64,000 nucleotides of DNA, taken from positions 15,934,001-15,998,000 of the forward strand of contig OX485806.1 in the NCBI GenBank assembly GCA_950295325.1, in the 5' to 3' direction. The notes beneath the pieces are model-generated. The model did no database searches. It saw only the letters and a list, made by a program, of their open reading frames with translations, and was not told the DNA's origin. The translations under genes were made by a program, and so were the position numbers. Below are positions 3,001 through 19,458 of the stretch, in pieces. This DNA comes from Polytrichum commune. Its lineage: Eukaryota > Streptophyta > Polytrichopsida > Polytrichales > Polytrichaceae. Each line of letters starts with the position of its first letter. Position 1 is the first letter of the stretch.

Positions 3001-5662
3001 CTAATTAACAATAGTACAAGAAGAGAATTGGATGCATACCAAGCAAGAAGCATTTGGATTGATTGTGACATCCCCAGTCATGAGACCCACATCAGGAAAC
3101 TCCTCCAACATATCCCGATATTTTTGGTTGCTAAGAGCCTTAATAGGCGAAGTATACACAACTCGCTGTTTATCCCGCAGTGACATAGCAATTGCATATT
3201 CTGCAACTACTGTTTTTCCAGCTGATGTATGGGCAGACACCTGTACACACAGGGCACAACCTGTACATGACTATGGAGAGACTAAGGTGTTTTCATTGAA
3301 AGCTCAAAAACAGAAATGCAACATATCAATTGAAATACATTTGCAACTTTGGATCTCAAGTAAATTCCAAGGTGCTGAGGATGGCATAATAGTGTGCTAG
3401 AAAATTGCAGTGCCCTTGAAATTACATGTGCCTCAACAAACAAAATGACCTCAATAAACTCTTCAACAACCCACTTGTGTGGAAGTTCCTAGTGGCACTC
3501 AACATTGAGGAACCTAGAGTTCACACTAATAGGATATCCATATGTACTTAGACATCAGTAGGAACACAGTACCATAGAACATGGAAACTACATAAATTGG
3601 CAGACCACATTTGATTTTTATAAAAGATTGCCAGGCATCCATAACTTAGGTCTAGGCATACAGGCTGAGCCCTTGGGGTATGACTTCTTGTCTCCTCCAT
3701 AAAACTCAACATTGCCAATCATGAAATGATTGATTTCTTATAACAACTAAGGGCTTTCTTGTGAGATTATTCTGAGGTGAAAACCATGACATTAATGTGC
3801 ATTTTCATGCTGCAGATTAACTAAGAACTAGGATTACGCTCATCTAACTGGACTCTAGATTGAAAGTTTAAACTGTGCCAATGGACCGATAACCAGGCAA
3901 AGCAATTAACTCTGCATGAATGCACACCTTGAAGTGCAAAATAATAAAACTAGCGGCCAAGCCTTCCAAGAGCAGAACTTAAACTGCAAATTCAGTGAAG
4001 AACATGAAATATGCGTACAGGGTTAGAGTTGGATGGCTCAAGGTCATTAAATAAATCTGCAGGCAAGGCTCAGCACCTTGCCTATAAACTCAGAAACCCG
4101 ATAAACAGAAACACCAGGCATTGTAATTAAACTGAGAAGAGTATCAAAATGCCTGAAGGGTTAGAGTTGATGGCTCAAATTCATTAAATACATTTACAGG
4201 CAAGGCTCGGTGTCCTTGCTGAGCTGATTCCTGTGATCTCAATAATCTGCAACACACTTGAATTTAAAGCTTACAGCTCAAGAACAACTGATTGAGCATG
4301 TATGGACTCCAAAGTAGAGCATTCAAATATGTAATTTAGGATGCTAATCAGCTTTTTGTCCATAACAGATGAATTCAATTCTGCTCACATTTGACTAGAG
4401 GACATTAAGAAAACTTGGCTTCTTAAGTTACCAACACAGATTCCCCAGATTCCACGCACTGGATAGCTTCCCTTTGGCATGGACAAGGGAAAAGGATACT
4501 TCTTTGCGGGAGCATGAATATGCATAAAGGTTAAAAGTTGATGCCTTAAGGTCATTAAATAAGATTGCGGACAAGGTTAAGGGTCCTTACTGTGCTAATT
4601 CCAGTAAACTTGATAACCCGCAAGAAACTAAACTTTCCAGCTCAAGAATAATAAATTGAGGATGAATGGACTCCAAAGCGGAGCATCCAAAGGTGACAAT
4701 TTGGATGCTAATACGCTCTTTTCGTCCATTACAATTCAAATGTTGCTCACATTCAAATAGAACACATAAAGAAAATTCGACTTACATCTTACCGAGACAG
4801 AATATGCCTAAAAATTAAGTTGATGGCTTAAGGTCATTAAAAAAATTTACAGGCAAGGATGAGGGTCCTTGCTGGGCTGATTCCTAAAAACTCGATAACC
4901 CACAAGACACTAAAATTTAAGCTTTCCAGCTCAGGAATAGCTAAATTTAAGCATGAATGGCCTCCAAATTAGAATCCAAAGGTGAAATTTTTGGATGCTA
5001 ATGGGCTCCTTTCGTCGACTACAATTGGAATGCTGCTGCTCACAATCCAATAGACCACAAAAAGAAAAGTTGACCTCCTGGTTACCAACACCGAATATGC
5101 GTAAGGGGTAAAAGTTCATAACTCAAGGTCATTGAATAAATTTGCAGGCAAGGCTTAGCGTCCTTGCTGAGCTGATTCCTGTAAACTCGATAACCCGCAA
5201 CACACTAAAATTCAAAGCTTACAGCTCAAGAATAACTACAAGTGATCATGCATGCACTGCAAAGTAGAGCATCCAAAGGAATAACTGAAATGTTGAATTC
5301 TAATCGAATTTTTCATTGTTTGCGATTCCAATAGAGCACAAAAAGGAAAAATTAGGGTTATAGCTTACCAACACAGATTCGCCAGCTTCGAGGCACTGGA
5401 TGGCTTCCCTTTGGAATGGATCCAGGATAAATGGATACTCCTTTGCAGGCGCTGTATCTTTCCTCTCTGAGACCGGGCGGACGTATCCCTCCGGTATAGA
5501 GACATCGTGAAGACATGCAATGCCACCTTTCCCAGCCTCCCCCACGTCCACAGGCTCCGCAAGCTCCACGGGAGTATGTAGAATTCCCGGTTGCCGAGCT
5601 TGCTTTGCAGACGCTCCTTGTTGCTCCGGCTCGTCCTCCGCCTTCCTCTTGGCCGTTGCCAT
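1..5662 (-). CDS. MTR4: MTR4-type exosome RNA helicase, N-terminal half (partial, 7 exons)
   Basis: Ski2-like DExH-box RNA helicase of the nuclear exosome, expected to unwind and feed rRNA precursors and aberrant RNAs to the exosome in the nucleus. Exons, all joined in phase 0: 5369-5662, 3040-3240, 2496-2714, 1624-1968, 1080-1184, 406-516, and 1-228 to the window edge. These give 501 residues without a stop. Visible motifs are the FILDPFQ Q-motif region (about residues 78-84), Walker A AHTSAGKT (101-108), DEVH (192-195), SAT (223-225) and motif [12 protein letters not shown] (467-476). The second RecA domain is incomplete, and the arch/KOW and DSHCT regions lie outside the window; the family is usually near 1,000 residues. 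The start is the first ATG of exon 1, followed by a short lysine-rich N terminus as in plant MTR4. The close homologue HEN2 is less likely, judging by the segments around residues 166-250. Confidence 0.95.
3241..5368 (-). repeat. MTR4 intron 1 with about five degenerate ~290-bp tandem units
   Basis: This 2.1-kb intron is far longer than the other introns of the gene. From about 4000 to 5368 it is made of diverged direct copies of one unit, starting near 4010, 4148, 4515, 4803 and 5096. Each carries the landmarks 'ggtcattaaata', 'aggcaaggctcag', 'tgctgagctgattcctg' and 'ctccaaagtagagcat' in the same order. The last unit ends at the real donor site of exon 1. The first part of the intron (3241-4000) shows no unit structure. 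Confidence 0.85.
4427..4511 (-). pseudogene. decayed copy of the 3' end of MTR4 exon 1 inside intron 1
   Basis: About 80 bases resemble exon 1 bases 5363-5452, including the donor-site neighbourhood ('ttaccaacacagattc' in both) and the run 'ggcttccctttgg' (here 'agcttccctttgg'). Several substitutions and a gap break the reading. It sits between tandem units 2 and 3 of the intron, so it was probably copied together with the intron unit. Confidence 0.75.
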
Positions 5663-5800
5663 GGCTCAGAATTTGAGCACAAAAAAAATGCTGTTCCGAA
5701 AACCTACATCGCCAACTAAGTTACTCTCCGCAATTGGCAATCAGGAACACAAACAAAGCAGGAAACTCCCTCGTCGACAGCGATAGTGCGTGTCTGTGTC

Positions 5801-6418: not shown

Positions 6419-6470
6419 CAACTAGCAGGAAGACGTTAAATACCCCCCCACGAACTTATAGGGGGCACCT
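6419..6470 (+). repeat. left TSD (6419-6427) and left TIR (6428-6470) of the MULE
   Basis: CAACTAGCA is followed by the 43-bp terminal repeat. After position 43 the similarity with the right end falls off sharply. Confidence 0.93.
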
Positions 6471-6599
6471 CTGACAGGTACAGGACTGCCCGCGAAGTGA
6501 TGTCAGCAGTGTCCAGCCGTCCATCCACTCCACTCGACGTTCATCCACTCCACGTCCGCGTTGAAGGCGTCCTCCAGACCTGCGTAGCTAGGATTTAGT

Positions 6600-7045
6600 A
6601 CACGACATTGACATATACTAAGATCCTTATACATTTATACATACAATGTTATATACACAATGTTACAAGTATAGGGTACTGTATATCCAGTTCTGCATCT
6701 GCTGTTCTGTATACCCAGATATGTACACCCAGACCCAGTTCTGCATATGTACATGCTCTGCAGATCTGCGATGGAGTGTTCCTGTATATCTACCTATACA
6801 GAACATTCCCTTCAGATCTGCGATGGAGTCGTTCTGCATATGTACCTATACAGAACATACTCTGCAGATCTGCAGAATGGACTCGTTCTCAATCTCTACC
6901 TATAGATAACATGATCTGCAGATCTGTACATGGACTCGTTCTCAATATCTACCTATACAGAACATGATCTGCAGATCTGTAAATGGACTCGTTCTCAATA
7001 TCTACCTATACAGAACATGCTCTACAGGTATGCGAATGGAGTGAT
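6600..7045 (+). repeat. left subterminal repeats of the MULE
   Basis: From about 6770 a unit of roughly 55-65 bp recurs at least four times, built around 'tacctatacagaacat' and the palindrome-rich 'ctgcagatctg'. Before it is a stretch rich in 'tgtata' and 'gttctgcat'. Subterminal repeats like these are typical transposase-binding regions; no binding site can be proved here. Confidence 0.75.
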
Positions 7046-7166
7046 TTTTGGATCTAGGGTTTAAGGGTCTTGGAACGCAGAGCACACATTTCTTTGCATA
7101 GTGTGTGATGGTTTAGGGTTTCGTCATTTGTGCTCGCGTTTTCAGATTTTGAGTTCTTTGCTATCC

Positions 7167-7650
7167 GTTTCCAGTTCTCCTGTTCGAAGTTGTTGGGTAC
7201 TGCTCAAATTTTCTTCATCGCCTTCACCTTGCAAGGACACATCCCCTCCTTTGTTTCCAGTTCTGTTGTTCGAAGTAGTTGGGTACTGCTCAAATTTTCT
7301 TCATCGCCTTCTACTTGCATCCCCTCCCTCGTTTCCAGTTCTGCTGTTCGAAGTAGTTGGGTACTGATCAAATCTTCTTCATCGCCTTCACCTTGCATCC
7401 CCTCCCTTGTTTCCAGTTCTGTTGTTCGAAGTAGTTGGGTACTGCTCAAATCTTCTTCATCGCCTTCACCTTGCATCCCCTCCCTCGTTTCCAGTTCTGT
7501 TGTTCGAAGTAGTTGGGTACTGCTCAAATCTTCTTCATCGCCTTCACCTTGCATCCCCTCCCTCGTTTCCAGTTCTGTTGTTCGAAGTAGTTGGGTACTG
7601 CTGAAATTTTCTTCATCGCCTTCAACTTGCAAGGACACACCCCCTCCCTC
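7167..7650 (+). repeat. 78-bp tandem array (6 copies) upstream of the transposase
   Basis: Six copies begin with 'gtttccagttctgttgttcg'. The four inner copies are 78 bp; the first and last carry a 6-bp insert ('aaggac'). Since 78 is divisible by 3, several frames stay open on both strands, giving a serine-rich 26-residue repeat on plus and an acidic repeat on minus. Neither frame joins the transposase frame directly, because a TGA stands at 7681 in the transposase frame. It may be promoter or 5' leader. Confidence 0.85.
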
Positions 7651-7797
7651 ATCACATTCGTATTCATGGAAATGGCCTCCTGAAATTCTGTTCAAGAGAA
7701 GGCGACCACCCATTTCCCCCGCAATTTGTCAAATCCTCAATCCAGTGTAGAGTGCGATGATGACATCCCACAAATCGCTCCTGCAACATTTCGTGCA

Positions 7798-10700
7798 ATG
7801 CAGGCTGATCTTATAATTTCGTTGAGAGAGAGAGTTCAAAATCCTCCTCCAGGTGCATTTGCTATGGACGACTTGGTGTGGACCAACCACGTTACACAAG
7901 GTCAAGGGATACAGAAAACCTCTAAGCTAGCTGTAATATTGTGGGAGAGACTTGATGATTTCATTAAAGGCGAGCAACAACATCCTCAATTTCCCTGCAA
8001 TTTTACCAAGGAAATCGTCCGTATTAACTTGCCAAACTCCTTGCGAACACCTCGTGCACACAGTCCTGCTATTGTATTGAGGTTTGACCTACTGCCTGCT
8101 CTGAATTTGAAACCACACACTATTCATGTTCTGCTTGTCATAATGTGCTCACCAGCCAGATATCAAACTTATGCATTTTATTCTACACTCCACAATTTGC
8201 AGTACACTGTCCTTACTGTTCATGAGGGTGTATGGATTCCATGTCCTGCAAATATGTACATATAAAATTTTACATATTCAATACATGTGTTCTTCCATTG
8301 CCATTGCAGATACAGGTGCAATTTTGGTCCTGAAGATAGGAGTGATATTGTTGCGCATGATATGCAAGCTCTACTGAAATCTACACAAAAAAAAGCAGAA
8401 GATGTTGCAGAAGAAAAAGCGAGGTAAGAAGGTAATACCGGAATACGAGTCTTTCGCAGTGAGCAAATCAACCCATCCAAAGGTTGCGCGCATTGGCAAG
8501 ACATGTGCGGGCAACTCAAGAAAGCGAGGGTGCCAATGTTGTTTTCTTGCGAAGAAGCCCTATCTGGACCACTCGTTGTGTTTGCTAATTTATGAAAATG
8601 CAGAACACTTGAATAAAGCTGGAGAACACTGCCACGGCACCATGCTCGGTGGATTTAGATATGCGCTCGGTGCTAGTCTTTCAACTGAAATGAAACAAAA
8701 AATTGTTGAAATGCATGCCTATGGGTTATCCCCTACCCAAATCATGCAACAACACACCAAAGAGGTTCGTGAGCTTGTCGTGTGTAATGGAGTGGTGACG
8801 CACGACACATTCTTGTTGCCGTGCGACGTCAGAAACATATGTCGAAAGAGGGCTGAAGATCTGTGGGAGAAACATCCGTCCGACCCGATTAGCGTCCGTA
8901 TGTGGGCAGCAGAGAATCCAGACAGCGTGTTCTACTACCAAGAGCACTCGCTACTGGACCTTAATTCTCAAACACAAGACGACTCACCTTTCACCATAGG
9001 CATACAAACTGAATGGCAACTTGAAATGATGGCAAACTTCGGTCACAACAGCGCTCTTTCCATTGACGCCACGTTTGGTACCAGCCAGACTAGGGTAAGC
9101 TAATGTCCATGTCCTTCATCTTCGTCATCATGTTCTGTGATGATTTTCTCATACTGCCAGTCAATTTGTTTCAACCATGTTCTGCCCTATGCTAACAATG
9201 ATGTTCATTGTTTCTACAGTACCCACTCTACACTGTTATGGTGTTCGATGATTGGAGAAATGGCATACCAGTGGCTTTCTTTGTCATTTCGCGGACACGT
9301 GAACAAGATCTCCGCCCAGTTCTTCAAGCGCTGCATGACAGGGTTCAAGGGTTAAAAAATGATTGGTTACCATCCTCTATTATCGTTGACAATGCTCAGG
9401 CTGAAATAAACACACTTGGGTAAGCAGTTATTGTCTGTTCTGCAACTTTTACTTTGTAGTCTCACCCCAATATGTAATGCAGTGTCCTGCATTGCATATT
9501 GGTGTTAATTATTAATTCCTCACTGTTACAGGTATTTTCCTCAGTGTTCATCCTCTGAGCTCATAATCTACTGTTCTGTCTCTTGCACAGCATGGTGTGG
9601 CCGCAAGCCAAAATTTTCATGTGCTTGTGGCATGTCAGAAAGTCATGGGCAGAGAACGCCATCAAGAAAATTTCAAGCGCTGCAGAACGCAACACTGTTC
9701 TTCAAATGCTCGGCGACATAATGTACGGGAAAGGTTGCAAGGTTGACGATGATCCTATCGACTGGGCCCTCGACCAACTTGACAACATATCTAACACTCG
9801 TCCATTGGCGAGTGCGTTCATGACATACATGAACGATGTTTGGCGAGTCAAGACACCAATGTGGTGCGTCGGAGCGCGACGGATACCACATGCAGGATAG
9901 AACACTAACGCGGCTATTGAATCCTATCACAACAATTTGAAGAGTGTTCTAAACTCTGCCAAAGAGAAATTTGTGGGTAGGCGCATGGACTGGCTTATTT
10001 ATCATCTAACGGGTGACGTTTTGACTCATTACTGGTACAGTGTCCAATGCAAAGCATACGGATATATACGCAACAAGAAACAAGAAGGTATTGTTGCATC
10101 TGCAATTATGGGAGCCAACGACATACCTGATAGTAAAGTCCTCATTTGTATGGACGAGGATGTTGCATATGTGGGGTCTGTAAACAACCGCCCGAAGGTG
10201 TGGACCATCAAATGTCCGGACTCTGAATGGGCACAATGCAACTGCCCCGTCGCCAAAGAGGGCATGATTTGCAAGCACACCATTAAAGTCTTCAAGATGC
10301 TCCACCCTGGAATTGAAGATGGTGCCATAGTGCGTGAAGCTGGTACACGACATGGAACTCAGCGCGCCACTCCAATTGCGCGTTGTTACGCAGGACTGTC
10401 ACAACAGACTACTCAAATCCATGTTCCGGAAGACATGGGCACACCAATCAAAGTTGAACCTGTGGTGCAGGACAATGTTCTGCAAATTGATGTTGTCGAA
10501 GATCACATCACTCTAACTCCTGTGGACCCTGTGACTGTGGACGACGAACAGAACCCCTCGCAGTTCTCCTCTCAGTTTACCCAGATGGACTCCTTCCATT
10601 CGACTCCCCTTTCCCAAGAGAGTTCTTCACAAGCACCCACTGCCGCAACCGCGCACGACATTTACGCCACCCTTGCACTCAAGGCTGAGCAACATCCTGT

Positions 10701-10899
10701 TCTACAAACTCACTTGATCGCTAGCCTTAGGCACATTCGGGGCAAGCAAAACCAGCTTATTGCACAAGGGGTTACATGGATGCCATTAACTCCTACGACA
10801 ACCTCGTTTCCAGAGAGGGCAGGCGACAACTCTTTAAAACGCCGGAGGAGTTTCCTGGAGTTCCCGTTGCCGAAGAGAAAGCTTTCCAGCTCCAAATGA
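7798..10899 (+). pseudogene. MULE transposase with SWIM zinc finger, interrupted by one TAG
   Basis: DDE transposase that would cut and join MULE ends in the nucleus. Exons by phase-matched splice sites: 7798 (first in-frame ATG, start uncertain)-8081, 8310-9094, 9220-9419, 9591-10899. The catalytic triad is visible: D at 9065-9067 (SIDATFG), D at 9388-9390 (IIVDNAQAE), E at 9919-9921 (NAAIESYH). The CxxH motif (CLWH, 9622-9633) is present, as is a C-terminal SWIM finger C-x-C-x8-C-x-H (10237-10278). An N-terminal Cys/His-rich segment (about 8529-8640) probably binds zinc. Two faults: TAG at 9898-9900, seven codons before the catalytic E, and a frame shift at an A8 run (8387-8394), unless a very short intron follows it. 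The rest, ending in TGA, is open, about 859 codons. Confidence 0.88.
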
Positions 10900-11889
10900 T
10901 AGGGTTTAAGTGTGAACAATAATCTGCATTATCTGCATATTTGTAATGCAGTACACAGTTAGTTCTTACTTGTAATAGTTTTTAATTCTGTGTGCAAAGT
11001 TATGTGTTAACAATAAAATGGTCCTTCCTAAGTACCATATCTGGGTGTAGTAGGGTGATTCATGTTCTGGTTACGACATACCTCAGCTCATTTTCCTTGT
11101 TGTACTGCAACTCGCCTGTCCTGCTCATTGTGTATTGTTCTGCACCATTGGTTGATCACGCGCCAGTTGTCCTGCCCATTTCCTACTCTACACTTCTTCT
11201 ACTGCACATCGACTGTTTCTGGGTTTGGTGCGTTTTCATCATGACTGCTCCCATCCCTTTCAAGTGGTCCCATCTAACCACATCCCCCCCCCAACATCCC
11301 ATATCACACATGGTCTTCTGAAATGCCATTGTTTTATATCAAAATAGTTGCTATTGAAAGCAGTACAAATGGTCTTTGACCTTCGAATGTTCTTTGTATC
11401 ATGTTCTACGTTTTCTGTGTTGTATATCCTGTTATGTGTATCCTGTTCTACATGACTATACGGTATTTGATGTTGTACAATGTAATGGAAACTGTACATC
11501 CATTTTACAACATGTTACACATGTAAAAAATACAACCTAACTCTTGTCGACTACTTTCGGAGGTCCGACCTTGAGCCTTACTCTGCGATGTTGTTTCGCT
11601 GGAGGTCTTCGTCGTAGTGCTGTCTGGTGTGCAATTCTCACGTTCCATTCCGTGGAGTGGTGCCGTCCATTCTCTATCACATCGATCAACGCATTCCGAA
11701 CTACCCTCCTTGTACGCAATGCATCTGTCCTGCTATAGTTCAACGCGAATCCTTGCAACAACACAAACATCCTTAGAACATTTGTTGCAGAACAACAGTA
11801 CATTAATTGTGGTAGTATTATACTTAAACTTTTTATGATCTATTACTCATCTGCGTATTCTCTATGCATGTTTAGGTGTTCAAAGAGGT
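10900..11889. other. convergent spacer between the two MULE genes
   Basis: This holds the 3' regions of both tail-to-tail genes. A minus-strand frame at 11537-11803 encodes an arginine-rich 88-residue stretch that could be a further 3' exon of the protease gene. A donor-like GTAATT begins at 11904 (minus), but no convincing phase-matched acceptor was found. Confidence 0.5.
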
Positions 11890-14800
11890 CTAAGACTCAA
11901 TTACCTCACACAATGTAAGGGGTCTATCTCTCACGCTCTTTGTATACTCCATGATATTCTTCAACATGTAGAACCCGCAAGCCCAGCCAGAATTTTGTTG
12001 TGGCACAATTCCTTGTACCCACTGCTGGGACGAGCTAACATCATTCCACATATCAGCATCGATATCATTGCCACTCCACGCAGCCCACAACTTTCCGAGT
12101 CTTGTTTCAATTCTGGGGTCGGAATGGAGACTTGACCCTACCAAGGAATCGAGATGGAAGAACCCGTGTCCCCCTACTATGTAAACGGTCCAATGTTTCC
12201 CGCATGTATAAGGAACTATTAAAGTGTTTATGTTCTGCGTTGGAAGGGCTCCATGCACGTCATGTATGAAGGCTACATATACCTCTAAGGTGTCTTTTTC
12301 TTGGTCCTAAAGATGCGCTAGGAGCAGGTTTAGAAGATAAGGACTGCAAACGTGACACTTTAAACTCTCAAGTTGGGGATTCAGCCACGCCCTAATCCAT
12401 TCCATCATGTAGTTACTCAACTCCCCATGATTTTGAACCAAAGGCTTCATATCCCCTTTCCACTATAGACTCAAATTCTCACCACAATACAGAAACTCAA
12501 AACTTGCAACTTTCTTCCCACCTGCTTCAGCAATGATGGTGTTCACAAGTTCCTCAAGTCTGCAGAACACAACCTCATGTATTAGTCTCGTAGCCAGCAA
12601 CATCAAAGGACGGTATGAATATTATGTTTTGCATCATTAACACTACATAAAAGTTACCTTCCATCCGATTTTTGTGTTGTACTGCCCAGTACGTCGTCCA
12701 AAGTTTTGTCCTCCTTAGGCTGGACAGGACGGGAGCTGACCTTCACTGGCTCAACATGTTCCTCCACCTCTGATACTACCGGGCACGCAGTGCGAGTTGA
12801 AGTGGATGCATCCTTTGTCGCCGTCGAAACTTCACCCATGTTCTGGACCGAAGTGGATGCATCATTTGTCGCCATCGGAACTTCACACATGTTCTGGACC
12901 TCTTTGTAGGCGTCATTGAAAAGTGCGCCTATTTCGTCCGCTGCAGCACCAGCGTCCTGTGAGCATCGGGATGAGTCCAATGGTTTGTTGTGGGTGCAAC
13001 CAGTAGGGGTAGTGTCGTCGAGGTTCAACCTCCGTGCTGGAGAAACCATTGTCCTGCCATCCGGAGGCCCTATTGCAAGCGTGTGAGACGGCGTCCTGTA
13101 AAACCACGGTCTTGTGTTGACCATTTAGCAAAAGGCATAGGTGGAAGGCGCTTAATTGAACTCATAGGTTGATAAGGGTGTGGTATGAAACACGAACCTT
13201 AATGGCGTGTTCTGCATCTCAGAACTAAGTTGTGTTAGGGTTATGTCCTACGTGCTGATGCGGTCGACGCCATCGAAATCCATGTGCATAGGTATTGAGT
13301 CCAAACTCTCCAAACTCATGGCCTTATGTACTTCACCCCCGAACCCCAGTGTTGATCGAGATGATTTTTCCATAGGCATCGTCACCTCTTCGAACAACAA
13401 CGCCCTCGTGCAATGTAGGTCAGGGGCAATGTCATCTGTTGTTTCCTCCACTCCTAGTCCACAATTGAACAACCGCAATTGGGTGGACCTTACATATTGC
13501 AAGCTTTGTACTATATCCTTCACCCGCATCTGCACGCAGGTGCTCTTCTTGTGCAGGTCACCCAATGTCAATGTTCCTATGTCAACGTCCTCGCGGAAGA
13601 CCATTGATGAACACAAGACCTGCGCCACATATCCTTCACTTACTTTGGCCATCGTATGTTGTTATACCAATACTGTTCTGCACTATATAATACTATATTG
13701 TTTTACAATCAATATTCAAAATGTACTGTTAGACATATCATGTTCCTATTAACTCCCAATCGTCATAGTGAAGAACATGCTAAACCCCGAGGGTGATTGT
13801 CAGATGAACAGGACTCAGTACATACCTCGCTACACTTCGCTTGGCGTTGCTCTCCGACGTCGACATTGAACCACATGTCAGCAAGCTCACTTTCACGGTG
13901 CATGTGGACCATGTCTGCAATGGCTCGTTGCGCGATCCTACCGATGAAGGACTCCATTTTCTTAACCACAGCCATGCGCCCTGATGGTTCGTGTCCAAGC
14001 AGAGCTGCAACGTTTGTGAACAGGACATCAATGTGTTCTGCGGCACTCTCGATGCTGGGGAAAGTACACCAACCTGTTGTAGGGATGTTCTGGGCAATTG
14101 TCGTCAAGGCGACTGAGTGGACTATGTCTCGAGCAAGCTCCAATATGTATTCCTCGTGGAGACCTATAGTTGGGTGTGAGATTGGACGACTGAAGCCTGT
14201 ATGATTTCTGACCAAGTACAAAAATGCTCTCAAAACATGCGGGCACTCACGCTCAAGCGACAGAGGCTCGGTCTTCGTGTTCGACAGCAGAACATCTGAC
14301 ATCTCCAGCCACTCCTGTTCTGTGTGGTCCCATGGGCCAGCCTTGAAATTTTTTAGAGGCCATTTTCTGAATATCTGGTACAACGGTGACCATTTCCACT
14401 TGGACTCCTCCTCCTTCTCTTTCACGGCGCTGTCAAATTTTCGTAACGCGTCTTCGACGTGATTTCTTCTAAAATTCTCAAAGTTGACCTTGGCGGCAGC
14501 AACCTTCTCATCGTACTCCCTTTGTTCGACGCGATAATGAAGATAGTCTTTCAGGCACCTGAGCTCTTCATACACGTTCACATCAGAATTGCTCTTAAAA
14601 ACCCTGACCTGCGCCTTTATTTTATCCAAAAATTCGCTATGTTCTCCAAGGTTCTTCTGCAATGTATACACCGGCAGAACATAAAAAAACGACTCATTAT
14701 AAGAACATAATATTGTACAGCCAATCTGATCTGGTAGAACATGAGATGATAGAGCACATTCAAAACTGAAGAACATGGAGTGAAACACAATACCATATTT

Positions 14801-17003
14801 TTGCCATGCAGGTACCATTGCCCGAATGCAGCCCCAACGCGATAGCCAATAGAGCCATCTTCCAATTGTTTCTGGAGGTATTGCATGCAGCCATCCGGGT
14901 CATCTAAGAGACTTTTTGGCACCCAATAATCGTCAGTCTCGTTGATAAGCACATAGAGACCATCGACTGGCACTAGTTCTGGAGGCCGTGTAATCTCTTT
15001 AGGCGCATGGAAAAGAACTGTGGCCTCCTTGTACGCGTGTTGTTTGCACTCCTCCCGCGACATGGGGATAGGTTGGACAGGTTCAGTCGAGGGCTGGGCA
15101 ACAACAAGGGGAATAGCATCTTCCTGCGGAGGCTCGGGTTGCATAACAATGTCCGTCACAGGTACTGTTTGCGGAACAATGTCTATGTCTATGGCAGGAT
15201 TCAATAGTACACCATCGTGCGAAGTCGTAGCTCGAATAAGTTCAGTCTGCTGAACTTGTGGGTGGATATGTTCCACACGCGACGGCGAAGGCTGTGCACG
15301 ATGTCCATGCTCGTGCGTCACAACACGGAAGTACCCATGGCCATTGTTCTGCGAATTTGGAGTCGCCTCCTTTGATGTGGAGTCGGACTCGCTTGGCGAC
15401 GTGCCTAAATTCAGGTCCTCTTCGCTAGAGGATATACAAATCCTGCGAGATGTCTTCTAATTTTTCTTCGGTCGTCCCTTACTGGCAGAGGGTGACTTGG
15501 GTACTCTGGGCGGTCCCTTCACTGCAAGGTTTTGCGCCTTGCGGGGTGGTGATGAGGGAGCGGCGTCCACACCAACGCTGCGAGTTCTACAGCCAATGAT
15601 AGGAACGGGCGTCCTCGTTGTTAGCTTGCGTTTTCTGGATGGAACACCATGTCCTGCATCGGCAGCCACCAATGATGTACTGCCCACTGGATTGGACTCT
15701 AATTCCAGAGGCGGAGGAAACTGCGATGGGGATTGGGAGTGCGACCCATGTGGCGAGGAAACCTTGTTGAATTTTTGTGCAATCCTATGCTTTTCTTCAT
15801 GATTGCTTGGCTCCCAGGTTGGATATATCTTAAGTGGCTTCTCTCCCGTGTAGCTCTTACATAGGTTAAACATCCTATGGTAAGAGACAGTGTTCTTATC
15901 CTTGTATGACTCATTGCAATAAATACAATTGAACCTGTACCTGTTATTGGCCATTTGAACTTTGTCCCTCGCCTGCCAATATGCCTCTACCACAAGCTCC
16001 TCATACTCATCCTCTACGTACATACATGCACAGGTCTTCCTATTTTGTTTCATGGTACAACGGAAAACCCTAGATGTTCCATCTGGACCAGCAAACACCT
16101 GCAAAACAATACCTGTTCAATATGCAGAACTGATGGGAGGGAAGAAAGTTCTAATAGAACTACAGGACATGTTAAATTCCTAAAACAGATGAGAGGGAAG
16201 AAAGTTTTGATAGAAAAAACAGGACATGCTAATTTCCTAAAACTGATGGAAGGGAAGAAAGTTCTCATAGAAAAAACAGGACATGTTAATTTCCTAAAAC
16301 TGATGGGAGGGAAGAAAGTTGTCATAGAAAAAACAGGACATGTTCATTTCCTAAAACTGATGGGAGGGAAGAAAGTTCTGATAGAATTACAGGACATGTT
16401 AAATTCCTAAAACTGATGAGAGAGAAGAAAATTTTGATAGAAAAAACAAGACATGCTAATTTCCTAAAACTGATGGAAGGGAAGAAAGTTCTGATAGAAC
16501 TACATGACATGTTAAATTCCTAAAACTGATGAGAGGGAAGAAAATTTTGATAGAAAAAACAGGACATGTTATTTTCCTAAAACTGATGGGAGGGAAAAAA
16601 ATTCTCATACAAAAAACAGGACATGTTAATTTCCTAAAACTGATGAGAGGGAAGAAAATGCAGTGAGCAAAACAGGACCTGTTTAATACCAAAAACTGAT
16701 GCTTACCCCTTGAAAGTTCTAAGAAAATTTAACATATTGTTATGTAGCAAATATGTAACCAACAATACAGGAAAATGGTAAGGAAAAACAACACAACAAG
16801 TTCTGTGAATGAATGCTTACCCCTTCTTGCCAACCTTGTTTACCATGTATGCTCAAGTGGACGAATTTGTGCCTCCCCAAGGACCTTATCAGGGCTTCAT
16901 CTTCGAGGACATGCCAACCCACAGCAAGCGCCTATGGAAGAAGTTTCGCCCCGTTCTTGTTCCTAGTCACTTTGGATGCTCCTGTTCCTTCAGTTGTCGC
17001 CAT
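11890..17003 (-). pseudogene. MULE second gene: C2HC (BED-like) zinc finger plus ULP1/C48 cysteine protease, with five in-frame TAGs
   Basis: Exons by phase-matched splice sites: 16821-17003, 14794-16098, 13826-14656, 13198-13619, 12658-13095, 11890-12559. They sum to 1,283 codons including the stop, without any indel. Near the N terminus is a Cx2C-x12-H-x5-C finger (15859-15927). The middle is long, charged and low in complexity, with basic and acidic patches. The C terminus is a ULP1-like peptidase: H in KHWTVY (12193-12195), D in HLDSL (12148-12150), Q in PQQNSG (near 11998) and C in GWACGFYML (11977-11979), so the triad is intact. TAG codons interrupt it at 16932-16934, 15457-15459, 13248-13250, 12463-12465 and 12307-12309; the terminal stop at 11890 is also TAG. 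ULP1 proteins remove SUMO or related modifiers; what this one acts on is unknown. Confidence 0.82.
16132..16700 (+). repeat. 57-bp minisatellite (about 10 copies) in intron 1 of the ULP1 gene
   Basis: The unit starts 'gatgggagggaagaaagt' and recurs every 57 bp. It lies wholly inside the 722-bp first intron (16099-16820) of the minus-strand protease gene. The small open frames across it are by-products of the period being divisible by 3. Confidence 0.9.
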
Positions 17004-17984
17004 TAATGCGTTCGGGTATGATGATTTCAATTATGCACAAAAACACTCAAAACTACACTTGAAAATGAGCAAACCCTAAACCTCACACGCTTTCATAATT
17101 TGCTGGCATTAAATGTGCGATAAGGGAATGAAGAGTCTGCAAATAAGCAAAACTGCAAACCCTAATAAAATTGTGCAGAATGTCGCTAATGAACTTGCTA
17201 ATGTCGCTAATGAACGGCCGTGGACATAAACTGCCGCAATAATAACTGCTGCTACAACAACAACCAGAAGCAGTTATTGGACACCAATCGATTAGCACTC
17301 AAAACCCTTGGAATGCCGCAAAAACCTTTCGAGTATAACCCGCAACCGCTTCGAATGTCACTAAAAACGCTTAGATTCTAACTAAGTCGACTCATCGAAA
17401 TCATGTCCACACTCGCCGAACACACACCAGCTCATAAATTTCGCACGTTCCTACTCAAAAGAAAATCAAGCAGTTCACAAATGAAACCCTCGCAGCCCTT
17501 CACAAGCTCTTTAGAAAATGGTTAAACCTGCTGGTCTTCAACCCAATGACGTCCAAATGATACCTAATAACCCTAAACAATCACTTTCAGTGAAATCACT
17601 ACGTCATGATTGATGCAGCTATCATTAAAGAGCATGGGCGTACGACATCCCTTGAGCAGGACAGCAGTCGCGTCGAACTGCTCTGTACAGGACTGCAGTC
17701 GCGAGGAACTGGTATCTACAGGAAGGCAGTCACGTGAAACTGCTGTGTAGAACAGAACAGTAGTGCAGCAGTGCATCAATGGCGTGGAGGTGATATGCAC
17801 AGCACAGTAGTAGCGTGGAACGTTAAATAGGGAAAATGTTCAATTTGAAGAGGTTGTCAATGTCTCCCTTGTTCTATGTTGGAGATGAGATCGTGTTCGA
17901 CAATGAAGCATTGTCCATCTCCCACTGTAATAAAATGCATATCGTCTACGTTGGAGATGACTTCATGATCCACAACCAATAAGA
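17004..17984. other. upstream region of the MULE ULP1 gene
   Basis: This is probably the promoter side of the minus-strand protease gene. No gene is recognised. Short direct repeats such as 'ctgctgtg' and 'aggactgcagtcgcg' occur around 17650-17760. Confidence 0.5.
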
Positions 17985-19140
17985 ATGCATGTTCCACAAA
18001 AAACCATAGCCCATGTTCCTAAACCAAAAAGAGTGCATGTTCCCCAAAAACCAGTGTCCATGCTCCACAATGAACCAGTGTCCATGTTCTTAAACCCTAA
18101 ACCAGTGTCCATGTTCCTAAACCCTAAACCAGTGTCCATATTCCTAAACCCTAAACCAGTGTCCATGTTTCACAATCAAGCAGTGTCCATGTTCCACAAT
18201 CAAACAGTATCCATGTTCCACAATCAACCAGTGTCCATGTTCCACAATCAAACAGTGTCCATGTTCCACAATCAACCAGTGTCCATGTTCCACAATCAAC
18301 CAGTGTCCATGTTCCACAATAAACCAGTGTCCATGTTCCTCAATAAACCAGTGTCCATGTTCCATAACCAATAACATTCATGTTCTACAATCCTATGTTG
18401 TGCTAAATAATGTCTCTATGTTGTGCTAATTAATGTCCCTATGTTGTGCTATTTTATGTCTATATGTTGTGCTATTTTATGTCCATATGTTGTGCTATTT
18501 TATGTCCATATGTTGTGCTATTTTATGTCCCTATGTTGTGTTATGTTATGTCCCTCAATAAATTAGTGTCTATGTTTCACAATAAACCAGTGTCCATGTT
18601 CCTCAATAAACCAGTGTTCATGTTCCACAATCAAGCAGTGTCCATGTTCCTCAATAAACCAGTGTCCATGTTCCACAATCAACCAGTGTCCATATTCCAC
18701 AATCAAGCAGTGTCCATGTTCCTCAATAAACCAGTGTCCATGTTCCACAATCAAACAGTGTCCATGTTCCACAATCAACCAGTGTCCATGTTCCACAATC
18801 AACCAGTGTCCATGTTCCACAATCAACCAGTGTCCATGTTCCTCAATAAACCAGTGTCCATGTTCCATAACCAAGAACATCCATGTTCCACAATCCTATG
18901 TTGTGCTAAATAATGTCCCTATGTTATGCTAAATAATGTCCCTATGTTGTGCTAAATAATGTCCCTATGTTGTGCTAAATAATGTCTCTATGTTGTGCTA
19001 ATTAATGTCCCTATGTTGTGTTATTTTATGTCCCTATGTTGTGCTATTTTATGTCCCTATGTTGTGCTATTTTATGTCCATATGTTGTGCTATTTAATGT
19101 CCCCATGTTGTGCTAATTAATGTTCCTATGTTCTCCCTAG
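17985..19140 (+). repeat. alternating 24-bp and 22-bp tandem arrays in the MULE
   Basis: A 24-bp unit ('cagtgtccatgttccacaat' plus 4) fills about 18040-18370 and 18560-18890. A 22-bp unit ('tatgttgtgctattttatgt' plus 2) fills about 18395-18560 and 18893-19140. So the block reads 24-22-24-22, as if a composite unit of about 500 bp had duplicated. The MFHNQPVS repeats that appear in translation come from 24 being divisible by 3. Confidence 0.9.
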
Positions 19141-19156
19141 CTAAGTTCAATTCAAT

Positions 19157-19320
19157 GTGTACTGTATACGATGTCATGTATACGATGTCCTGTGTGGGAT
19201 GCACTGTATACGCAGTCCTGTATACGGGGTCATGTATCCGCTGTATTGTATACGTTGTACTGTATATGTCGTACTGTATCCGACGTCCTGTATACGCTGT
19301 ACTGTATACGCCGTAGAACT
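19157..19320 (+). repeat. right subterminal repeats of the MULE
   Basis: About twelve short units of roughly 13 bp share the core 'tgtatacg', separated by variable triplets. They lie about 90 bp inside the right TIR, and the same 'gtata' flavour appears at the left end. Confidence 0.8.
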
Positions 19321-19406
19321 CCTAAACGCGTTGTCATCCATACGCGTCCGCGAATGACCGGCACGACCGGTCACCCCGTCGCCGGGCTGCCCTGCACATT
19401 TTCAAC

Positions 19407-19458
19407 AGGTGCCCCCTATAAGTTCGTGGGGGGGTACTTAACGTCCTCCCAACTAGCA
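19407..19458 (-). repeat. right TIR (19407-19449) and right TSD (19450-19458) of the MULE
   Basis: This is the inverted copy of the left TIR, with two substitutions (at TIR positions 4 and 13), followed by an identical CAACTAGCA. Confidence 0.93.

Follow-up and report, generated by a model that had tools for sequence, protein, structure and literature searches.

We analysed a 64,000-nucleotide window (C4:15934001-15998000) of the 407.8-Mb Polytrichum commune genome, which contains a 13.0-kb DNA transposon at positions 6428-19449. This Mutator-like element (MULE) has intact ends and two broken genes: a plus-strand transposase gene and a minus-strand ULP1 protease gene. All six premature stops in the two genes are TAG, a pattern that the original prediction attributed to deamination at CHG sites or, alternatively, to tolerated readthrough. 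The features that mark the element as a MULE are a 9-bp target duplication, terminal inverted repeats (TIRs) and a dispersed multi-copy family; MULE target-site duplications are about 9 bp long. The element is composed as follows:

6419..6427, no strand: left target-site duplication CAACTAGCA, 9 bp, exact match to 19450-19458
6428..6470, plus strand: left TIR, 43 nt, 95% complementary to 19407-19449
8378..9094, plus strand: transposase exon from a splice model, ending SIDATFGTSQTR before GT; frame open across copies, 5' start provisional
9220..9419, plus strand: transposase exon with MULE-domain match (PF10551, E=1.3e-5, 26.0 bits, just below the curated cut-off of 27.6)
9591..10899, plus strand: last transposase exon (splice model), natural stop TGA at 10897-10899; SWIM match at E=0.058, below cut-off
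11890..12559, minus strand: ULP1 exon 6 (splice model), C-terminal part of the C48 peptidase (PF02902), natural stop TAG at 11890-11892
12658..13095, minus strand: ULP1 exon 5 (splice model), containing an in-frame 51-bp tandem repeat at 12799-12900
13198..13642, minus strand: ULP1 exon 4 (splice model), with the acceptor at 13642 the least certain
13786..14656, minus strand: ULP1 exon 3 (splice model), open frame in copies
14794..16098, minus strand: ULP1 exon 2 (splice model), open frame in copies
16821..17003, minus strand: ULP1 exon 1 (splice model), ATG at 17003
19407..19449, minus strand: right TIR, 43 nt, pairing with the left TIR at 95%
19450..19458, no strand: right target-site duplication CAACTAGCA, 9 bp, exact copy of the left one

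Gene models and copies of the element

We identified 13 loci, including the window, that are 96-100% identical over 1 kb, and further loci at 83-94% and near 70%. Below, close copies are the 12 other loci (L009-L020) that are 96-98% identical across the search kilobase, and diverged copies are those at 83-94% (L021-L025). A 38-nt stretch that matches the TIR at 95% is present in the diverged copy L024. The near-identical copies look like a burst.

The transposase model comprises 742 codons in three plus-strand exons and has one internal stop, the TAG at 9898-9900. A TAA at 9353 was considered as a missed premature stop and rejected because that exon uses a different reading frame. The natural terminator is TGA, but TAA in L019. 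The first exon has an A-run at its edge (8382-8386), which is 1-2 nt longer in all nine close copies that cover it. We provisionally take this run to precede the coding part; if it is coding, the window copy has a frameshift there.

The ULP1 gene runs from 17003 to 11890 in six exons joined by phase-consistent GT/AG splicing. Internal stops in the model number exactly five, all of them TAG, and the model ends at a natural TAG that is shared by 15 of the 16 copies covering the site, window included (L024 differs). The original prediction described a single indel-free frame of 1,283 codons. Comparison with the other copies revealed no indels private to the window copy in the ULP1 exons, in keeping with that description, but the model is 1,304 codons long including the stop. 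The PF02902 (Ulp1/C48 peptidase) match has an E value of 1.1e-4 and scores 22.5 bits, above the cut-off of 20.7, and one match was obtained among solved structures, to the Ulp1-like SUMO protease 6dg4 (E=0.002). The number of units in the exon 5 tandem repeat differs among copies.

A Pfam scan of nine pieces of both genes gave one match each to PF10551, PF02902 and SWIM and none for the other six pieces. The first transposase exon (8378-9094) was without a match, and none of the three transposase pieces besides the PF10551 one yielded a family above its cut-off.

Arabidopsis, melon, rice and grapevine are described as having ULP1-carrying MULEs, some with TIRs and some without, and with the ULP1 gene in either orientation (PMC2528002, PMC13317346). 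Judged by those descriptions, the window element resembles Arabidopsis KAONASHI/KI-MULE and other such elements in combining a MULE transposase with a Ulp1/C48 protease gene, and it shares with KI-MULEs and some grapevine families a ULP1 gene that is reversed relative to the transposase (PMC2528002, PMC13317346). KI-MULEs are non-TIR elements, whereas the window element has 43-nt TIRs and a 9-bp target-site duplication; because TIRs are present, it is not a KI-MULE proper. ULP1 within TIR-MULEs is also reported (PMC2528002). The window element is thus a further ULP1-carrying MULE, with TIRs and in reverse orientation.

Many tandem arrays lie within 6751-7631 and 16128-19314 and make up about a fifth of the element by their listed spans, with units of 53, 78, 57, 31, 24, 23 and 14-42 bp.

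Ancestry of the six premature stops

The six TAGs lie at the positions and on the strands originally predicted and are the sole internal stops of both gene models. The corresponding codons in the close copies are as follows:

9898..9900, plus strand: premature TAG in the transposase; of the 9 close copies spanning it, 8 have CAG and 1 has CAA
12307..12309, minus strand: premature TAG in ULP1 exon 6; all 11 close copies spanning it have CAG
12463..12465, minus strand: premature TAG in ULP1 exon 6; of the 11 close copies spanning it, 10 have CAG and 1 has CAC
13248..13250, minus strand: premature TAG in ULP1 exon 4; of the 12 close copies, 11 have CAG and 1 has CAT
15457..15459, minus strand: premature TAG in ULP1 exon 2; TGG in 12 of 12 close copies, with a plus-strand C-to-T change in a CAA (CHH) context
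16932..16934, minus strand: premature TAG in ULP1 exon 1; GAG in 7 of 7 close copies covering it, a G-to-T transversion

Four of the TAGs are CAG-to-TAG changes, one is TGG-to-TAG and one is a GAG-to-TAG transversion. The claim that each had once been a glutamine codon (CAG) therefore holds at 13248, 12463, 12307 and 9898 and fails at 15457 (TGG) and 16932 (GAG); non-glutamine codons in relatives, which had been named beforehand as evidence against the claim, occur at these two of the six sites. Diverged copies agree with the close ones at the sites they cover, apart from gaps at 15457 (codon missing or gapped in L021-L024, TGG in L025) and variants at 12307 (CAG in L021, TAG in L022, GAG in L023 and L024).

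Mutation spectrum and candidate methylation machinery

A base was taken as ancestral if 70% or more of the other close copies share it. Three repeat stretches and positions 8376-8400 (the A-run region) were left out. We use CWG for CAG and CTG, and C-to-T changes were counted on either strand. In the window copy, C-to-T changes were found at 32 of 610 CWG sites (5.2%), 19 of 670 CG sites (2.8%), 2 of 110 CCG sites and 23 of 2598 CHH sites (0.9%); A/T transitions number 8 of 4575. The CWG rate is 5.9-fold the CHH rate (p=9e-11), and the same contrast without the six stop codons is 5.5-fold (28/601 versus 22/2595, p=3.7e-9). The predicted excess of C-to-T changes at CHG sites elsewhere in this copy is thus clearly present. 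A stricter count, limited to sites invariant in all other copies, was in agreement, with 15/240 for CWG, 9/359 for CG, 2/66 for CCG and 15/2002 for CHH. Changes at CWG fall on both strands of the window copy (15 plus, 17 minus).

The other 12 close copies, when pooled, have C-to-T changes at 233/6530 CWG, 173/7253 CG, 10/1210 CCG and 273/27675 CHH sites, and the CWG rate exceeds the CHH rate in every one of them. The window copy's CWG load is slightly above theirs (p=0.043). A high-copy retrotransposon family that lies outside the MULE served as a control, for which we used 11 of 12 loci, in two groups, from the same genome; the twelfth (L036) was excluded as only 87-89% similar. These loci gave 51/853 CWG, 64/1693 CG, 14/556 CCG and 176/8115 CHH. 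Since the pooled order is the same in the other MULE copies and in the retrotransposons, the scar is not peculiar to the window copy or to the MULE.

Outside exons (7640-17000 and L009-L020), the cytosine of CTG is about twice as mutable as that of CAG (54/1080 versus 25/1081, p=8e-4), so the two strands of this palindromic site behave unequally.

Chromomethylases (CMT3/ZMET2 and moss CMT) methylate CHG sites in transposons on both strands, favouring CWG over CCG and CHH. Compared with those systems, the pattern described here is seen as a mutation scar alone, pooled CWG decays faster than CG, and the two cytosines of the CWG site decay unequally. ZMET2 is reported to be about threefold more efficient when the target C is followed by A/T instead of C/G (PMC9256654); low CCG beside high CWG fits this intrinsic CWG preference. 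In a moss, 97% of CHG methylation is reported to be lost without CMT (PMC6453930).

The P. commune genome encodes a CMT-like gene at C1:60734161-60734617, which is 65% identical to a typed motif block and carries GGPPCQGASGFNRFRN. Its best matches among solved structures are 9mvy, 7ubu and 4fsx at 2e-34, and the next is at 4.5e-13. All of these matches are labelled DNA (cytosine-5)-methyltransferase 1 in the result table; we take the first three to be maize ZMET2. A chromodomain-like stretch upstream was recognised by eye and has no Pfam match. A BAH-domain search of the genome found no CMT; it gave two BAH matches in a MET1-like gene. We presume the identity of this gene from these matches and a recognised motif, and Pfam assigned one 79-residue piece of it to no family. 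From these sequence similarities and the mutation spectrum, we infer methylation to be the cause of the C-to-T excess, with the CMT-like enzyme as its probable agent.

The control family, which includes L026-L037, has at least 123 scored matches among 353 candidates and is found on all seven large contigs. One member, L027 (at C4:45872068), contains aspartic-protease and C5-cytosine methylase matches within one open frame (L027:1-2100). By description, this family is like the DNMT-bearing retrotransposons reported from the charophyte Klebsormidium nitens and from dinoflagellates (PMC5890265). The examined pieces of the L027-type family showed no reverse transcriptase.

Explanations for the stops

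We consider it highly probable (roughly 0.92) that the window holds a MULE copy decaying near-neutrally, that most of its stops come from CWG-biased, probably methylation-driven C-to-T decay, and that chance, to a mild degree, made all of them TAG. Cytosine methylation is probably how the genome silences MULE copies of this kind. Since insertion, the element's genes would have decayed with little or no selection, and C-to-T change at their CAG/CTG cytosines would have run several times faster than at CHH. Because CAG codons are the biggest single source of stops by the C-to-T route, such decay leaves TAG more often than any other stop. CHG deamination as the mode of decay, as originally proposed, is supported by the excess of CWG over CHH changes on both strands.

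Several observations weigh against this reading. Two of the six stops do not derive from CAG. CG sites mutate less than CWG sites (p=0.03 in the window copy, p=0.015 in the retrotransposons); as plants usually methylate CG more than any other context, the rate is not governed by the level of methylation alone. Nor is the order uniform: among the 13 MULE copies CWG exceeds CG in 9, and among the 11 retrotransposon loci in 8, so this part of the order is one of pooled counts. The Fisher tests assume independent sites, and majority-rule ancestry may misjudge fast sites. Finally, nonsense changes in the transposase (8402-10899, 13 copies) number 8 versus 16.3 expected (Poisson p=0.019), which is a hint of selection or else chance.

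Could six random point mutations have happened to make TAG without any bias? The number of stops is not far from that expected (6 versus 3.9-4.3; P of six or more, 0.20-0.27). However, under flat rates the probability that all six are TAG is 0.007, and the spectrum is plainly not flat, which makes unbiased decay very unlikely. The modelled frames contain 1,978 codons with a clear ancestor, among them 40 CAG, 53 CAA, 38 TGG and 12 CGA. At the rates of the other copies, 3.9 stops are predicted for the window copy (P of six or more, 0.20), 59% of stops are expected to be TAG, 21% TGA and 20% TAA, with CAG-to-TAG the biggest source, and six of six TAG has a probability of 0.042 (0.095 at the window copy's own rates, where TAG makes up 68%).

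The original prediction held TAG-only decay free of frameshifts to be special, and the other copies do not bear this out. The 12 other close copies contain 30 stops (17 TAG, 10 TGA and 3 TAA), and the five diverged copies, read in the window copy's frame, contain 26 (16 TAG, 5 TGA and 5 TAA). When the 36 stop types of the 13 copies were shuffled, six of six TAG in the window copy had p=0.052; for an all-TAG set arising in any of the copies that have five or more stops, p was 0.30. Small exon frameshifts number seven in the 12 other close copies, a count that leaves aside the A-run and insertions of greater length (exon 3 of L020 has one of ~5.1 kb) and includes several copies that do not cover all exons; at this rate the probability of none in the window copy is 0.56. 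Two copies, L017 and L018, have no stops yet are frameshifted. The all-TAG set is barely beyond chance for a TAG-biased process.

APOBEC-like deamination of single-stranded DNA, or repeat-induced mutation, would have produced the stops in one or a few events. C-to-T and G-to-A changes do outnumber other changes in 13 of 13 copies, but by the strand totals (15 and 17) they affect both strands of the window copy, the load is distributed over all 13 copies, and the favoured target is the palindromic CWG. We regard such an origin as highly improbable.

In the ULP1 exons of the 13 copies, 32 nonsense changes were found against 31.8 expected from non-exon rates (base changes were judged singly, hence the sum with the transposase differs from the 36 stop codons), and the synonymous fraction is 0.314 against 0.312 expected. 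Pairwise ratios of nonsynonymous to synonymous divergence (dN/dS) are 0.48-0.73 for ULP1; for the transposase they are 0.78-1.12 among close copies and 0.50-0.56 against or between diverged copies. We rejected these ratios as proof of selection: for ULP1 among close copies because mutation bias by itself accounts for the synonymous fraction, and for the diverged comparisons because mutation bias may shape them too. Both genes may have been under selection in the past.

A tree of 16 copies has mostly short, weakly supported inner branches; nodes joining L014, L019, L020, L012 and the diverged copies have support of 84-100. Nine stop sites are common to at least two copies, and eight of these need at least two changes on the tree, so that inheritance of shared stops was rejected. 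One carrier of the ninth (15256-15258), L023, is absent from the tree. Sites at which the minor base occurs in at least two close copies are homoplasic in 44 of 48 cases at CWG, 22 of 24 at CG, 20 of 24 at other C-to-T sites and 17 of 49 at the remainder. We found no TAGs kept under selection in independent copies; the stops are private or recurrent.

The alternative raised by the original prediction, that the host reads TAG as glutamine or terminates poorly there and so makes controlled full-length proteins, draws on the six-of-six TAG pattern and on a ULP1 frame that is otherwise open and free of private indels; it is contradicted, and we judge it extremely unlikely, because relatives have Glu and Trp codons at two of the sites, ULP1 itself naturally ends in TAG in nearly all copies, TGA and TAA make up 13 of the 30 stops in the other close copies, eight of nine shared stop sites are recurrent (the ninth having one of its carriers outside the tree) and ULP1 nonsense accrues as expected without selection. 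A changed genetic code was rejected on the relatives' codons, the stop mix, the natural TAG terminator, the recurrence of shared stops and the stop rate. This recoding-like pattern is instead explained by CWG-biased transposon decay, with ULP1 stops accruing at the non-exon rate.

It is possible, although we would put it somewhat short of even odds, that transposons in this genome carry a chromomethylase-type signature (CWG decaying faster than CG, and CTG about twice as fast as CAG) and that CHG methylation is the main mutagen that kills their genes. Faster decay at CWG than at CG could reflect better repair of G:T mismatches at CG or fuller methylation of CWG. This difference is the sole point that may be new. 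Among the papers listed by literature searches, none plainly dealt with scars of the CAG-to-TAG kind in plant transposons, although earlier reports may exist. If the proposal is true, stop codons of dead transposons could serve as a readout of CHG-methylation mutagenesis. A useful by-product of the analysis is the CWG-over-CG scar itself, which two retrotransposon groups and one MULE family show and which is readable without methylation data.

An open frame at 5300-5665 on the minus strand, immediately to the left of the element, resembles the N-terminal part of an MTR4/HEN2-type RNA helicase.

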